The notes under the pieces are model-generated. The model worked only from the letters and a program-made list of their open reading frames with translations, did no database searches and was not told the origin of the DNA. A DNA stretch of 30,703 bases from a virus: the IMG/VR virus record IMGVR_UViG_3300042908_000349, positions 1 to 30,703 of that record; one strand, written 5' to 3'. Both the position numbers and the translations under genes were made by a program. Positions 3,585 to 30,703 of the stretch are shown here, one piece after another (positions within the stretch are counted from its first letter, which is position 1; each line of letters begins with the position of its first letter).

Positions 3585-5477
3585 TTATCCTAAAGTTGCA
3601 TTTTGAACGATGGAACGATTAAGACCTTGTTGAGTACTTACGTCTTGACCCACAACGAATGCTTTTAAAGGTTGTGTATTTTTTCCAGCTATACTTTGAG
3701 CGATTTGATTTGCACCACTTTGACCTACTACATTAAAACTCGGTGCTGATGGTGTACCAGCTGAAATTGTGTTTCCACTTCCACCACCACCACCTTTTGG
3801 AACTTTTACCGACATGATGTTTTTAACGGCTTTAAAACCAGTTAAGGATGCCATAGCAACGGCTGGAATTGCTTGGGGATAACCTAGTTTGACCCCAGCT
3901 GATATACCTTGATAAGTATTCATTAAAGCCGATGCAAGTGCCAAAGTTTTTCCAACTCCAGTTTCCTTGCCTATAATGTCACTAGCTGATGACAAAGCTT
4001 CTGATGTTTTACCTAGCAATTCCATTTTTGCATTGTATTGTTCTTCATCTAATTTTTTAGACGCATCCTTACTTTCTTTTTCAATTCTTAATTTCTCACT
4101 TTCAGTTAAACTTTTGTCTTGTAATAACAATGCCTCTCGGTCTAGTATAAGTTGTTTTTTATCTTCAAAAGAAATTGTATCATCTTCTAGTTGTAGTTCT
4201 AGTTTTGCGATTTCTTCGTTTCTGTCTTCTTCATCTTTTTGAGCTTTTGCTTCTTTGTTTTGTAAATCAAAAGTTTCTCGCAATAATTTTCTAGCATTTT
4301 CCTTTTCAGTTTCAGTAGCGTTGATATTTGCTAAATCTACTTCCAGTTGCTTCATGGCTTTTTCTTGGCTTAAAGCTAGTTTTTGTTCTTCTGTTTGAGC
4401 TATTAAAGAAGCTTTGTCATCCTCTAATTTTTTCTGTAAAGCCAGAACTTTGTCAGCGTGTGCTTTGTCTAAATCTAATTGCTTTTGTCTGAAATCAGCT
4501 TCGATTAATTCTCTGGCTTTTGCTTTTTCTTTTGCAGTTAGTTTGATGGCATTAAGTTCATCAATGGCTCGTTGTTTTTGTCTGTCTAATTTTTGTTGCT
4601 CTGTTTTATCTTCTAAATTCTGTAAATCATCTCTATATTTTTTCTCTAGGTTTTTTAAAGCATCCAGTTGTTGCTGACGATTTGCTTTTGCTTTTTCTCC
4701 ATCAGCTTTCTTTTTTTCGTTTGCTTTCTCTGTGGCTTGTTTTTCAGCTTCCTTATCTTCTGTATAATAATCAGCTTCGGCTTTAATTTTTGCCCTAGCA
4801 TTTTTTTGTTTTAAATCTAATTGTTTGTCTAAATCAGCATCAAGTTTCGCAAACGCTTCTTTTCTAGCTTCTTCTGTTAAATCATCATTTTCTAAAGTCT
4901 TATAATGTAATTTCATTATAGCTTCAATCTGTTCTTCTATACGTTTTTTTTCTTCTGCTAAATATTCATTATTTCTTTTTCTTAATTGGTCTTTGCTTTC
5001 GCCATTTGCTTTTGCGTATTGCATGTTGATGTCGTTGAGAAATTTTGCACTTTCTGAATTTCTGTCAAACGCTTTGCTTTGTTCATCTAACGCTCTAGAT
5101 AAATCATTTACGGCTTGTTCACTTTTTTTCTCTGAACTGAACATATCAGCCATTATCGTAATCAATTCTCCCAAAGCTATAACCAGAAGTCCAACACCAG
5201 TACTCATGATTGCACCCTTCAATCCTTTCAATGATAAGTTTGTTAGGTCAATTCCTTTTACTGCACCAACAAAAGCATCAGACAATCCACCAGTCGCTTG
5301 ACTTAATTTAGATGTAAGTTGTCCAGAGTTTATAATTTGTTTTGCGTAATCGGTTGTTTTTTCATTTGTCTTTTTTACGTTACCATCAAGTTTGTTAAAG
5401 CTTTCTCCCAGCTTATCAATATTTGATGTGGCTTCGCTAGTTTGGACTTTTACCTTTACTTCTACTTCTTGTGCCAT
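3585..5477 (-). CDS. Tail tape measure protein
   Basis: 630 residues, with the usual layout of a tape measure protein. There is a short start (MAQEVEVKVKVQTSEATSNIDKL), a hydrophobic Gly-rich segment at about 85-112 (GVGLLVIALGELITIMADMF), and a very long charged coiled coil at about 130-490 rich in Lys, Glu, Ala and Gln. A second Ala/Gly segment near 500-545 is followed by PKGGGGGSG. It sets tail length and probably enters the cell envelope during DNA ejection. At about 1.5 angstrom per residue, 630 residues suggest a tail near 95 nm. It lies downstream of the baseplate-like genes. Confidence 0.88.
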   Translation of the reverse strand: MAQEVEVKVKVQTSEATSNIDKLGESFNKLDGNVKKTNEKTTDYAKQIINSGQLTSKLSQATGGLSDAFVGAVKGIDLTNLSLKGLKGAIMSTGVGLLVIALGELITIMADMFSSEKKSEQAVNDLSRALDEQSKAFDRNSESAKFLNDINMQYAKANGESKDQLRKRNNEYLAEEKKRIEEQIEAIMKLHYKTLENDDLTEEARKEAFAKLDADLDKQLDLKQKNARAKIKAEADYYTEDKEAEKQATEKANEKKKADGEKAKANRQQQLDALKNLEKKYRDDLQNLEDKTEQQKLDRQKQRAIDELNAIKLTAKEKAKARELIEADFRQKQLDLDKAHADKVLALQKKLEDDKASLIAQTEEQKLALSQEKAMKQLEVDLANINATETEKENARKLLRETFDLQNKEAKAQKDEEDRNEEIAKLELQLEDDTISFEDKKQLILDREALLLQDKSLTESEKLRIEKESKDASKKLDEEQYNAKMELLGKTSEALSSASDIIGKETGVGKTLALASALMNTYQGISAGVKLGYPQAIPAVAMASLTGFKAVKNIMSVKVPKGGGGGSGNTISAGTPSAPSFNVVGQSGANQIAQSIAGKNTQPLKAFVVGQDVSTQQGLNRSIVQNATLG

Positions 5478-14077: not shown

Positions 14078-14106
14078 TGTTTTTGTTTTTAGTGTTTGAT
14101 GTTCTA

Positions 14107-14137
14107 CAAATATAATCTTTTTTCCTTTTATAACAAA
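14107..14137 (-). promoter_or_regulatory. Host-type promoter TTTG-N19-TATATTTG
   Basis: On the minus strand TTTG (14137-14134), 19 bases, then TATATTTG (14114-14107). This matches the Bacteroidota -33/-7 consensus TTTG / TAnnTTTG in both sequence and spacing. Transcription would start near 14102 and read the 105-residue gene, exonuclease, DnaA-like protein and terminase. It lies in the gap after the gene at 14141. Confidence 0.75.
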
Positions 14138-14140
14138 TTT

Positions 14141-17003: not shown

Positions 17004-17375
17004 TTAAAATGGTAAGTCATCAGCTTGTACTTCTTCTGCATATTCCATCAAGTTGTTTATGGTTTGTCTGTCTAATTTTCTGTCTGGCATAAATTTGTCA
17101 GCGTTCAATTCGGCTTCCCCTTTATTTATTTTCCAACCTTGAATGTTTGCAAAATATTTACCCTTCCATTCAGTACCCCTTAAATTGATACCGATTTTTA
17201 CAATGTCTCCAATTTGGAAGTTGTCCAATAAAAAAACTTTGTCTTGTGTAAATTCTACTGGAATTGTCTGTGGATATTGCTCATCAGTTTTAACGACTGC
17301 AATTCTTTTTTTAAATCCCTTTGCTCCGATTGTTTCAGTCTCCCCTTTTACAATCAATTCTCCTTGTATTTCCAT
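17004..17375 (-). CDS. DUF3127-type single-stranded DNA-binding-like protein
   Basis: 123 residues. An OB-fold-like beta pattern (MEIQGELIVKGETETIG, FKKRIAVVKTDE, IPVEFTQDKVFLL, GDIVKIGINLRGTEWKGKYFANIQGWKI) matches the DUF3127 family, which replaces SSB in many Bacteroidota phages. The acidic C-terminus ends DDLPF, like the interaction tail of bacterial SSB. It would coat single-stranded DNA during replication and recombination, together with the ERF protein two genes upstream. A strong terminator follows. Confidence 0.88.
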   Translation of the reverse strand: MEIQGELIVKGETETIGAKGFKKRIAVVKTDEQYPQTIPVEFTQDKVFLLDNFQIGDIVKIGINLRGTEWKGKYFANIQGWKINKGEAELNADKFMPDRKLDRQTINNLMEYAEEVQADDLPF

Positions 17376-19016: not shown

Positions 19017-19187
19017 TTAGTAATATTCTGAAAATTCGTAATATTCGTCATAAAAGATAGTGTAGTCCAGATGTGGGTACATTTCACTAAATTTTAATTT
19101 CGACCTTTTTGCTTCTTCTTCTGTAAGCAATAGAGTGTGTGGTTTGCCTTCTTCTAGCAATACCCAGCGTGTGTCATTTGTTTCCAT
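19017..19187 (-). CDS. Small acidic protein, unknown
   Basis: 56 residues from METNDTRWVLLEEGKPHTLLLTEEEAKR to the Tyr-rich end YYEFSEYY. I favour the ATG at 19187, which gives a 14-base overlap with the gene upstream; a start at 19205 (MLKHLR) is also open. No domain is recognised. Confidence 0.6.
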   Translation of the reverse strand: METNDTRWVLLEEGKPHTLLLTEEEAKRSKLKFSEMYPHLDYTIFYDEYYEFSEYY

Positions 19188-19798: not shown

Positions 19799-19818
19799 TT
19801 GTTTTTAGTGTTTAATGA

Positions 19819-19905
19819 TTAATAAAAAAATCTGGTTAAAAAATAGACTGCAATAATTCCGATTGCGTAAACTTGGTACTTCTGTTTGCTTAAAAATGTT
19901 TTCAT
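19819..19905 (-). CDS. Very small membrane peptide
   Basis: 28 residues: MKTFLSKQKYQ then VYAIGIIAVYFLTRFFY, a single hydrophobic segment with a basic N-terminus. Its start MKTF and leader (ACTAAAAACAATC) are like those of its neighbours MKTLST and MKTLNL, which argues for a translated gene in spite of its size. It would insert in the inner membrane. Function unknown. Confidence 0.5.
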   Translation of the reverse strand: MKTFLSKQKYQVYAIGIIAVYFLTRFFY

Positions 19906-19913
19906 GATTGTTT

Positions 19914-20563: not shown

Positions 20564-20605
20564 TTTTTTGTTTTTAGTGATTGATTTTTACTTCTGTAAT
20601 TATAA

Positions 20606-20857
20606 TTAATATTCAAATTCTCCAATATACAATTTTCCATCTACGAATGATGGCTCGTATTCTTTATGGTCTTCCATCATATCCGTAGTTTCCATGAAAT
20701 CTGTATAGTCTGCTAATTCTAATTCGTGACATACGATTATAACTGGAAATTCATCTCCCCTAAAAGGATGTTCGTAAAATACAATTTCTTGACCTTTAGA
20801 GTTTATCATTCTGTCGTATTCTGTTGGATTGTTTTGCATTAATTTTTGATAGTTCAT
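20606..20857 (-). CDS. First gene of early operon, downstream of hammerhead ribozyme
   Basis: 83 residues, acidic, MNYQKLMQNNPTEYDRMINSKG to YIGEFEY. No domain is recognised; one Cys. Its start codon lies 75 bases downstream of the predicted hammerhead cleavage site at 20933/20932. After cleavage its mRNA would begin with a 5'-hydroxyl and the AAAGTTTG stem I sequence. It may be a host-takeover protein, given its first place in the early operon, but this is speculation. Confidence 0.72.
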   Translation of the reverse strand: MNYQKLMQNNPTEYDRMINSKGQEIVFYEHPFRGDEFPVIIVCHELELADYTDFMETTDMMEDHKEYEPSFVDGKLYIGEFEY

Positions 20858-20884: not shown

Positions 20885-20940
20885 TTTGTGTTTCGCCAAT
20901 CTGTGGCTCATCAGAAAGTTCATTCAAACTTTGACACAAA
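20885..20940 (-). ncRNA. Type III hammerhead ribozyme
   Basis: All conserved parts are present and in order on the minus strand. Stem III 5' strand TTTGTGT (20940-20934); cleavage base C (20933), giving a GTC-type site after the U of GU; stem I AAAGTT (20932-20927), loop TGAATG, AACTTT (20920-20915); core CTGATGA (20914-20908); stem II GCCA (20907-20904), loop CAGAT, TGGC (20898-20895); core GAA (20894-20892); stem III 3' strand ACACAAA (20891-20885). Stems have 6, 4 and 7 perfect pairs and no core base deviates. Open stem III makes it type III. Self-cleavage is expected between 20933 and 20932. Confidence 0.95.
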
Positions 20941-21129
20941 CGACCTGTTACTATGTAGCTAAATAATTGCCTTTTTGTAAATGCCGTAGTTTCGGTTTTT
21001 AAGCCAGAGTAACTACACCCAATTTTTTAGTCTTTATTGACCTCGCCACTTATTCTCTGTGGTCTCGATATCTTTCACTAGGAAGAAAGAAGTCCGATTT
21101 AATGAGTGGTGTTCTCCACATTTGTTTAG
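20934..21129 (-). ncRNA. Structured leader ending at the hammerhead (candidate ncRNA)
   Basis: This gene-free stretch lies between a possible -7 element (TACATTTG, 21137-21130) and the ribozyme. It contains several potential helices: GTGG/CCAC near its 5' end, CCAC/GTGG around 21060-21044, and GTAGTT/AACTAC around 21015-20985. No ORF longer than about 23 codons is open. Cleavage by the ribozyme would give this RNA a defined 3' end with 2',3'-cyclic phosphate. Whether it is a functional RNA or only a leader is open. Confidence 0.4.
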
Positions 21130-21137
21130 CAAATGTA
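21130..21137 (-). promoter_or_regulatory. Candidate -7 element TACATTTG of early operon
   Basis: TACATTTG matches TAnnTTTG, lies 44 bases downstream of the terminator T run and 270 bases before the first early gene. No clear TTG is found 17-21 bases upstream, so the promoter is weak or uses phage help. Confidence 0.45.
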
Positions 21138-21180: not shown

Positions 21181-21210
21181 TAAAAAAAAATCCCTACCAA
21201 AAGGCAAGGA
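21181..21210 (-). terminator. Intrinsic terminator after ninG
   Basis: On the minus strand TCCTTGCC, loop TTTT, GGTAGGGA makes eight pairs including two G-U, followed by nine T. It ends the transcript that includes the NinG gene, about 70 bases after its stop, and separates it from the hammerhead region. Confidence 0.85.
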
Positions 21211-21279
21211 CTTTTCCGTTTCACTAAAAACGATTAAAAAACAAAAAGTATGAATTAATCAAACTTATAAGCAAATATA

Positions 21280-21822
21280 CTATTTTAATTCTTTTATCAG
21301 TATATCGTATTTGATTTTTTTGGCGATTAGTTCTTCTTTTGTGAATTTGTAATTTCTGGTTTCGTTTGCCATCATTTCTAGCTCATTTACATAATCATGT
21401 CCATATCGTTTTATTAAGCCATCTCGATAGTTCAATTCGTTACCACCCAGAAATCTGTTGCACTTGCGACATTGTTTGTGGCAATTCTTTTCGTTAAATA
21501 TAACTCCAGAGTAAATTTCGGCTTTCTTGAAATGTCCACCATCCCAGAGTTCTGTATTTTCAACACCACAACTGATACATGGTTGTTTCTCATCTCGCAT
21601 TCTAACCCACTTTTGAAAGGACTTCTTTGCTTCTGCCTCATATTGACCCAGCGTTTTAAGTTTTTCCTTTAAAACGGCTTTTTGTTGTTTCCAGTCTTTT
21701 TGTTCTTTTTGTTTTTTAAGATTTTTGGAATGCTCAATCGCACACTTATACCCACATACAATTTGCGCAAACTGAATTGGTGTGAATTTAACTTTACAGA
21801 TTTTACATTTCTTATCTTTCAT
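21280..21822 (-). CDS. ninG: NinG/Rap recombination nuclease
   Basis: 180 residues. The N-terminal CKICKVKF and CGYKC form a small zinc knuckle. A basic helix with Lys and Gln follows (about residues 33-60). The conserved core is SFQKWVRMRDEKQPCISCG, WDGGHFKKAEIYSGVIFNEKNCHKQCRKCNRFLGGNELNYRDGLI-type (about 69-137), which is the NinG signature with its HNH-like Cys and His residues. In lambda, NinG (Rap) is a Holliday-junction/branched-DNA endonuclease that acts in recombination. Together with the ERF and SSB-like proteins it completes a recombination set. A terminator follows. Confidence 0.93.
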   Translation of the reverse strand: MKDKKCKICKVKFTPIQFAQIVCGYKCAIEHSKNLKKQKEQKDWKQQKAVLKEKLKTLGQYEAEAKKSFQKWVRMRDEKQPCISCGVENTELWDGGHFKKAEIYSGVIFNEKNCHKQCRKCNRFLGGNELNYRDGLIKRYGHDYVNELEMMANETRNYKFTKEELIAKKIKYDILIKELK

Positions 21823-22808: not shown

Positions 22809-22943
22809 ATATTATCTATTTTATAATTTATTAGGGTTGTATAGTTATTATATTATATATTATTTACTTTCTTTTGTTAGATTTTTGAGCTTAAAAGATA
22901 TAGTAAACCCAAGGGAAATAATCAAAAAAATGACTAAATCCAT

Positions 22944-23101
22944 TGGGTACTATTAACTTTCTTAAGTTGAGTTTCGTCACTTTGAAAGATGATAATTTTT
23001 ATCCAAGTTAAATTATCTCTCGAACTTTCAGCACTTGAATGCTGATGCCACCATTTCGATTTAGTCTGGTGCTTCCTTTCGCATAACCCGATGGTAACCC
23101 A
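22944..23101 (-). ncRNA. Multibranched structured RNA element (candidate)
   Basis: The ends pair as TGGGT(T)AC (23101-23094) with GTACCCA (22950-22944). Inside, at least three local hairpins follow in series: CACCA/TGGTG, TCAGCA/TGCTGA with loop TTCAAG, and GATAATTT/AAATTATC, the last flanked by GAAAG/CTTTC. A small AACTT/AAGTT hairpin precedes the closing strand. No ORF is open. It lies downstream of the small RNA terminator and 136 bases before the Cys-rich gene. It could be a separate ncRNA, a 5' UTR element or a ribozyme of unknown class. Function is unknown. Confidence 0.5.
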
Positions 23102-23142
23102 TCATTTTTTAGGAAGTTTAAAGGTTTTCCGAAAACGTGATT

Positions 23143-23193
23143 TCAGACAAAAACAAAAAACCCTATCAAGGGGTTGCAGTCTTGAAAGGGTTT
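23143..23193 (-). terminator. Strong intrinsic terminator (hairpin H3)
   Basis: The 13-pair stem AAACCCTTTCAAG / CTTGATAGGGTTT, one mismatch, is followed by TTTGTTTTTG. It ends the small RNA and may also stop readthrough from the phosphoesterase gene. Confidence 0.85.
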
Positions 23194-23238
23194 CTCAATT
23201 AGGTAAACCTAAATCAATAGGTGCAACCCAAATTGATG
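23145..23238 (-). ncRNA. Stand-alone terminated small RNA with complementary loops
   Basis: The RNA would start near 23238 and end in the T run near 23145, about 95 nt. It has three hairpins: H1 ATCAAT/ATTGAT (23237-23213) with a 13-nt loop; H2 TTAGG/CCTAA (23212-23199); H3 AAACCCTTTCAAG / CTTGATAGGGTTT (23193-23158) with one mismatch and loop ACTGCAACCC. The H1 loop contains GGGTTGCA (23229-23222), the exact complement of TGCAACCC (23178-23171) in the H3 loop, so the two can kiss. No ORF is present. The RNA may act on phage or host targets, or the kissing could regulate termination. Confidence 0.65.
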
Positions 23239-23241
23239 TTT

Positions 23242-23270
23242 CAAATATATGAAGTTAAATAATACGACAA
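23242..23270 (-). promoter_or_regulatory. Host-type promoter TTG-N18-TATATTTG
   Basis: TTG (23270-23268), 18 bases, TATATTTG (23249-23242) on the minus strand. This fits the flavobacterial consensus TTG-N17-23-TAnnTTTG. The first transcribed bases would form hairpin H1 of the small RNA. Confidence 0.7.
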
Positions 23271-23293
23271 TATAATACTTATTATCAAATTGT

Positions 23294-30243: not shown

Positions 30244-30703
30244 TTATATATAATTTGATTATCCGAAATAAGTGTCAAATTCTCTTTCTTTTTCATCATA
30301 AAGCGCATCCAAAGTCATTCCTTGAACAATGATATTATAATGTTCTTCGAAGTCTGGATATACTTCTGATACATCAACTCCCAATTCATCAGCTAGAACT
30401 TGTATTTCTTCTAGTTTTAATTTGTCTCCAGCCAATTCATCCTCAAATCTCCAGAAGTTTTCTGAATTGTTTTTGAATACATCATTTAGCATTTGCCATG
30501 ACTCTACGGCTTTGGCAAAAAGTTCGTCAAATGCTTCTTCTACAAAATAAGATAATTTAGAATATTCTTCTTCAACAACTGAATATTCATAATCTAGCTC
30601 ATCCACTTTGCCTAATTTAATTTTTTGTTTTTTAGCCAAAAGTGTATTTTTTGACTTTTGGATTTCTGATACTTTATTTAATAAAGTAAAAATTTTAGAT
30701 TGT
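30058..30703. repeat. Right terminal repeat, matches 1-643
   Basis: Right-hand counterpart of the terminal repeat. It is 3 bases longer than the left copy, a one-codon indel within the variable gene. Its outer boundary coincides exactly with the window end and the left copy begins exactly at base 1, as expected for unresolved circular overlap in an assembly. Confidence 0.9.
30259..30703 (-). CDS. Variable acidic helical protein, allele B (cut by window edge)
   Basis: 147 codons of the second version of the gene at 202-651; only the first three codons (MET) lie beyond the edge. The N-terminal segment up to KIKLGKVDEL and the C-terminus EKEREFDTYFG equal those of allele A, while the core has many changes and one extra codon. 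Both versions keep an open frame, and many of the changes are conservative (E/D, Y/F, K/R), so both are likely functional. See the finding on the overlapping ends. Confidence 0.82.
   Translation of the reverse strand, partial: QSKIFTLLNKVSEIQKSKNTLLAKKQKIKLGKVDELDYEYSVVEEEYSKLSYFVEEAFDELFAKAVESWQMLNDVFKNNSENFWRFEDELAGDKLKLEEIQVLADELGVDVSEVYPDFEEHYNIIVQGMTLDALYDEKEREFDTYFG

Follow-up and report, generated by a model that had tools for sequence, protein, structure and literature searches.

We found a complete type III hammerhead ribozyme (HHR-III) between a structured leader RNA and the first gene of what appears to be the early operon of a bacteriophage. Comparison with its relatives indicates that self-cleavage probably separates the leader from the early mRNA, although cleavage is inferred and no RNA data are available. 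The window analysed is a 30,703-base IMG/VR virus record with all major genes on the minus strand. It encodes portal, capsid-region, tail and tape-measure-like proteins, terminase, endolysin and NinG, together with an Erf-like annealing protein, a ParB-like protein, a DUF3127 SSB-like protein, a helicase and a sigma-like protein. At the protein level, the named phages most similar to it are lillamy/morran of Flavobacterium (ParB-like, 65.7%) and P12024S of Nonlabens (portal, 38.3%), which makes a Bacteroidota host very probable for this siphovirus-like phage. Similar proteins with a common KKQKIKLGKVDEL..Y stretch are encoded at both ends of the record (202-651 and 30259-30639); should the genome be circularly permuted, these may be adjoining tandem paralogues.

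The hammerhead lies in a 422-base gap between the NinG gene, which ends at 21280, and a run of small genes beginning at 20857. Read along the minus strand, this gap contains a terminator-like hairpin, a TAnnTTTG element, the leader and the hammerhead. TAnnTTTG is the consensus of the Bacteroidota -7 promoter element. An earlier note, made from the sequence alone, had placed the ribozyme at the head of an early operon. The position is correct, and the term "early" is itself an inference from gene content (Erf, ParB-like, DUF3127 SSB-like, helicase and sigma-like genes). The features of the region are as follows, in 5' to 3' order.

About 21182..21217, minus strand: intrinsic-terminator-like hairpin behind the NinG gene, setting the upstream operon apart (15-pair stem and T run; 1 found vs 0.1 in shuffles).
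21130..21137, minus strand: TACATTTG, which fits the Bacteroidota -7 element TAnnTTTG and would place the start of transcription just downstream.
21046..21119, minus strand: leader module A, with hairpins at 21106-21119, 21071-21090 (loop UUCCUAGU) and 21046-21062 (alignment A5).
20986..21042, minus strand: leader module B, with hairpin GGTC..GACT, GGGU-(GUAGUU)-ACUC and the loop partner AACUAC (covariation, 15 leaders).
20941..20985, minus strand: 3' tail of the leader, from module B to the ribozyme (within 86.6% identity to contig L117 over 299 nt).
20940..20885, minus strand: complete HHR-III (RF00008, 45.5 bits; family model R1, 59.8 bits; family covariation).
20933..20940, minus strand: 5' strand of stem III plus C17, on the leader side after cleavage.
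20932..20933, minus strand: predicted cleavage site between C17 (20933) and the following A (20932), inferred from the type III core register without RNA data.
20915..20932, minus strand: stem-loop I, which would form the 5'-OH end of the mRNA (first pair changed from A-U to C-G, a compensatory change, in L117).
20908..20914, minus strand: core segment CTGATGA.
20895..20907, minus strand: stem-loop II, GCCA-CAGAT-TGGC.
20885..20894, minus strand: GAA and the 3' strand of stem III.
20606..20857, minus strand: first gene behind the ribozyme, 83 aa, unknown function (phrog_11770).

Several other sequence elements were observed in the window. An inverted repeat, CATTTGctaaaCAAATG (21119-21135), overlaps the putative -7 element and could be an operator or the start of the leader fold. 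An A-rich CACTAAAAACAAA stretch recurs right before start codons (for example at 20564-20605, 19799-19913 and 14078-14140), and the 3' strand of stem III continues into A-rich sequence of the same kind. A second gene-free stretch of 485 nt (22809-23293, minus strand) contains TAnnTTTG, a terminator-like hairpin and several other hairpins, and 117 nt of it are 78.6% identical to positions 804-919 of contig L014. An Rfam search of this second gap returned nothing credible, neither a second ribozyme nor a known RNA.

The earlier note had described a complete HHR-III at 20885-20940, and this was confirmed. On the minus strand, 20940..20885 reads TTTGTGTC^AAAGTTTGAATGAACTTT CTGATGA GCCACAGATTGGC GAAACACAAA, with a complete core (C3-U4-G5-A6-U7-G8-A9 / G12-A13-A14 / A15.1-U16.1-C17) and three paired stems. 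The lengths announced for stems I, II and III (6, 4 and 7 bp) were borne out, stem I having 5 bp and an 8-nt loop in the family register. The first positions of the three helices are paired (1.1-2.1 A-U, 10.1-11.1 G-C, 15.1-16.1 A-U). Stem III is open and loops close stems I and II, which corresponds to the type III permutation. The cleavage site predicted between 20933 and 20932 agrees with the core register, and its distance to the first gene, 75 nt before the ATG of 20857..20606, was as first given. RNAfold returned the three-stem fold; the folding energy was uninformative for both the hammerhead (z -0.37) and the leader (z -0.91). A tertiary contact between loop I (TTGAATGA) and loop II (CAGAT) is plausible, without contact data. 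The match had been judged very unlikely to arise by chance, and indeed a strict HHR-III scan of both strands gave one match in the window and none equal to it in 1500 dinucleotide-preserving shuffles. The outcome of the proposed Rfam type III check was divided. The alignment to RF00008 is full-length (45.5 bits; E 6.6e-9 for the 441 nt searched, 1.1e-10 for the whole record), but the score does not reach the cut-off of 48.5 bits, a curation threshold that is not part of the ribozyme's definition. There is consequently no match at the gathering threshold, and routine annotation would miss this hammerhead. The family model R1, built from 47 sequences with the window copy among them, gave it 59.8 bits. 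The likeness to RF00008 extends to the core, the open stem III, the closed stems I and II and cleavage after NUH; the difference is in the score, just under the cut-off for the window copy and also insufficient for most relatives with covarying stems. Taken alone, the window hammerhead is a new member of a known family.

Relatives were sought in IMG/VR with the pattern CTGATGAGNNNCAGANNNNCGAAAC. It constrains the core, the leading pair of stem II and some of loop II, and leaves stems I and III free. The pattern matched 62 viral contigs, and all 62 form a complete HHR-III with paired stems I and III, against a background of 0.15% for stems of 5 and 4 bp in shuffled flanks; many related contigs are partial. 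Among 47 distinct copies, the window included, 98.8% of pair cells hold standard pairs. Double-change cells numbered 209 vs 48 after shuffling, with a covariation score of 0.85 vs 0.20, and pairing fell to 25-33% when the partner strand was slid by one base. The same pattern produced five matches in 257 billion bases of genome contigs, and only that in L123 had the other stems. The four remaining matches (L124-L127), without stems I and III, were read as chance and gauge the background of the pattern. The L123 hammerhead (4298-4351), located in a bacterial assembly (a MAG named Firmicutes) and possibly within a prophage, precedes a start codon by 23 nt. In the closest relative, L117, loops I and II are identical to those of the window, stem I begins with C-G where the window has A-U, and stem III has 4 bp instead of 7. 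The conservation of CAGA in loop II results from the construction of the pattern and is hence not claimed; other loop II sequences occur in four independently found copies (L159, L164, L168 and L195). A joint Rfam scan of 16 HHR-III loci left a single one above the RF00008 cut-off. Standard Rfam thresholds thus miss nearly all of these ribozymes, which are consequently absent from many phage annotations.

Relatives of the window's first gene (L002-L004) also have a hammerhead, or a degraded one, at the head of the same operon. That of L003 is intact. In L002 (2615-2665) and L004 (2616-2666), which are the same contigs as L260 and L259, respectively, stems I and III are the same, the core reads CCGATGA (U4 to C) and the 10.1-11.1 pair is broken. 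These copies score 33.4 bits with R1; the leader is intact and the gene order is kept. Core or stem damage of this sort has served as grounds to reject a hammerhead (PMC3088659), and by that standard both look decayed. They may represent a natural loss of the hammerhead, useful as a control, and a damaged core in two close relatives suggests that some phages can do without the ribozyme or replace it.

The structured leader reported upstream of the ribozyme held up on comparison: as far as sequences alone can establish it, the 5' leader is a conserved, covarying RNA made of exchangeable modules and tied to the ribozyme. For module A, 91.3% of cells are paired in alignment A5 (seven sequences), with 23 double-change cells vs 7.5 after shuffling, and the hairpin with the loop UUCCUAnU has double changes in all six stem pairs. 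In module B, the loop (GUAGUU in the window) pairs with a downstream segment, and four core positions are paired in 60 of 60 cells over 15 leaders. The shuffled mean was 39.7, none of 20000 shuffles reached 60, and slid registers gave 13-29 of 60. Each of the loop types AGUU, GCAU, GUCU, AGCU, GGUC, GCAC and GUCC meets its complement, with one G-U pair in two copies. The GGGU/ACUC pair is invariant, and the loop pairing is nested or pseudoknotted depending on it. Other leaders carry a different module, C, which ends with CTAGGAAGA directly before stem III. TAnnTTTG occurred 69 times vs 17.9 expected in the 600 bases upstream of 58 hammerheads.

Scans with the leader motifs only retrieved 6 contigs for module B and 10 for module C, and a hammerhead came next after the leader in all 16 (14 intact cores, 2 decayed). 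The leader modules are common to the window's group and to an elemo-type group, which form separate shared-protein clusters. The window has every part of the unit, namely TAnnTTTG, a structured leader module, HHR-III and a same-strand start codon. No Rfam family was found for the leader at the gathering threshold in the window and 16 related loci; weak matches to MicC, wcaG and RAGATH-22 (E 1.4-9.4) were dismissed as chance. A blastn search for leader homologues in named phages returned none that was credible.

The position of the ribozyme relative to the coding sequence is also constrained. In 53 of 62 contigs a same-strand start codon lies 14-19 nt after GAAAC, vs 3.3% at random same-strand positions, and the first genes behind the HHR-III represent about 47 unrelated families of small proteins. 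This combination indicates that the ribozyme holds its place before a start codon even as the following gene varies. With 32 nt between GAAAC and the start codon, the window falls outside this range, so that the translation-unmasking step proposed below fits this copy less well. Outside the window's group, several type III and type I hammerheads were observed in L066, L067, L071, L104 and L122, of which L066 and L122 are G+C-rich. Placement before start codons is therefore not limited to one phage lineage.

Type I hammerheads (HHR-I) are present in the same operon in 30 of 66 HHR-III loci, a few of which are overlapping pieces of one contig. Most have the form GGTTAA-CTGAYGA-(stem II)-GAAA-(hairpin III)-H^TTAACC, and the pattern search matched at least 120 stretches. 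In 160 of 192 distinct copies the stop codon of the upstream ORF begins within -9..+7 of the HHR-I (null 8.3%), and in 159 the next start codon follows 12-22 nt downstream (null 8.1%); both placements are met in 131 (null 0.6%). Alignment A4 of these copies is 100% paired, with 78 double-change cells vs 18. Of 34 mixed arrays, 33 begin with a type III copy. Downstream of these ribozymes lie 276 genes in 187 families (median 75 aa), and six families occur behind both types. Cleavage leaves the ribozyme body on the downstream RNA in type III and on the upstream RNA in type I, and a first gene placed between the two would thus receive a hairpin at each end. No HHR-I copy was reported by Rfam at cut-off in the loci scanned. 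One copy is present in L117 and five in the L113 contig. Three to five HHR-I were observed between successive small genes in L160 (1258-2933), L165, L211, L241 and L113, most of which overlap a stop codon and precede a start codon. The window itself has no HHR-I, neither by R2 model match nor by strict scan, and so no second hammerhead in the operon. A retrozyme or circular-RNA element was rejected because the window lacks a second hammerhead and no reverse transcriptase was found there. The relatives, the leader modules and the downstream type I hammerheads all lie beyond the earlier account.

Our preferred interpretation is that the transcript would begin near 21125, the structured leader of about 190 nt folding first and the hammerhead next. 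The hammerhead would then cut itself after C20933, releasing the leader as a separate structured RNA with a 2',3'-cyclic phosphate end. The early mRNA would begin with a 5'-OH directly on stem-loop I, the ribozyme body remaining as a 5' hairpin cap, and opening of stem III would bare the A-rich stretch before the first start codon. The architecture of these phages would accordingly consist of a promoter, a modular leader RNA, HHR-III and the first gene, followed in many relatives by HHR-I between genes. The job first suggested for the ribozyme, either cutting off a 5' leader or freeing the RNA upstream, is favoured by the comparative data, since the leader is conserved, covarying and ribozyme-linked and the start-codon spacing is narrow despite the changing gene; the choice between the two is unresolved. 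Ribozyme identity, covariation, leader linkage and start-codon spacing are firm at the level of comparative genomics, whereas in vivo cleavage, leader release and effects on mRNA stability or decay or on translation are inferred. We hold evenly balanced the broader proposal that the leader represents a novel type of phage RNA, modular and exchangeable, which the hammerhead releases at the start of infection, and that in many relatives it heads a cassette array with hammerheads bounding every small early gene, the upstream stop overlapped and the next start bared.

The cut may instead serve the leader: the hammerhead would form the 3' end of a trans-acting phage non-coding RNA, with host RNA polymerase, the ribosomes or a defence system among its conceivable targets, and any mRNA effect would be secondary. 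We consider this a tentative possibility. It would account for the conservation and covariation of the leader, including the loop-to-downstream pairing in 60 of 60 cells, for the modules common to the window's group and elemo-type phages, for module C ending directly at stem III and for the hammerhead coming next in 16 of 16 leader-motif contigs. However, the HHR-I copies and the HHR-III of L122, L164 and L168 have no such leader and keep the start-codon spacing, which argues that the mRNA side matters too, and there are no expression data. It appears unlikely that the hammerhead is a regulated switch, the leader setting when or whether cutting occurs so that the operon answers a signal. The leader modules do abut stem III directly and resemble elaborate regulatory leaders with pseudoknot-like pairing, but near-identical hammerheads follow leaders of quite different architecture, the downstream HHR-I copies have no leader, and natural type III hammerheads are fast (PMC6155905). 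Less likely still is that the ribozymes are conserved seams at the DNA level for recombination of gene cassettes, cleavage being incidental: the cassette genes are indeed small and highly varied, and some families occur behind both types, but the compensatory changes in all three stems imply selection on RNA structure and leave less DNA identity for recombination to use. Chance resemblance, supported only by a score 3 bits under the Rfam cut-off, can be set aside with near certainty given the absence of equals in 1500 shuffles, the conserved position and the covarying stems of 62 further contigs, covariation already refuting it.

The role of hammerheads in bacteria and phages has been open since 2010-2011, and a review still describes it so (PMC6155905). 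Among known systems, the closest precedent with RNA evidence is, by analogy, that of haloviruses HF1/HF2, in which a hammerhead (HHphage) lies 13 nt before the first early ORF and a transcript 5' end was mapped within 3 nt of the cleavage site (PMC3088659). As in our proposal for the window, the hammerhead shortly precedes the first ORF of an early polycistronic transcript; HHphage differs in its archaeal host and in a two-nucleotide core insertion, whereas the window core is canonical, and no conserved structured leader is described for it in PMC3088659. Work published in 2011 described tandem hammerheads around prophage genes, demonstrated their cleavage and proposed that they cut long phage transcripts (PMC3088659). 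The window's relatives likewise have several hammerheads around small variable genes, the window having only one copy, but their III-then-I order and stop/start placement are much more regular than described there. The theta ribozymes of gut phages (PMC10879173) are also self-cleaving RNAs of Bacteroidota phages, with an HDV-like fold near tRNA genes rather than a hammerhead near early mRNAs. Neither the leader-ribozyme unit nor the stop/start placement was found described in the literature searched, which is weak evidence as it included few subscription journals. The conserved leader-hammerhead unit heading the early operon thus appears to be new, the hammerhead itself being of a known type.

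A blastn search with the hammerhead region matched 68 Flavobacterium elemo records, in which the spot is unannotated among the matches listed. In MT497017, the record of phage elemoA, the HHR-III at 19085-19137 scores 68.1 bits; 15 nt separate its end from the first CDS in a long series of small genes that lie opposite the tail genes. A model search also located one HHR-I 1.8 kb further on, at 17290-17347 (45.3 bits, E 1.9e-9). The annotated CDS elemo79Aphanotate_43 (MT497017 17275-17382; L128 5757-5864) overlaps this HHR-I on the opposite strand and is probably spurious. No hammerhead was found in the cultured relatives lillamy9-1 and P12024S, and blastn for type I cassettes in named phages gave only a chance-level match.

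The regular placement of these ribozymes allows a job to be proposed for them, and the leader RNA would be, as far as we could find, an uncatalogued partner. As cultured Flavobacterium phages (elemo group, host BAL314) carry the leader-hammerhead unit, cleavage, the fate of the leader and the effect on early genes are directly measurable.
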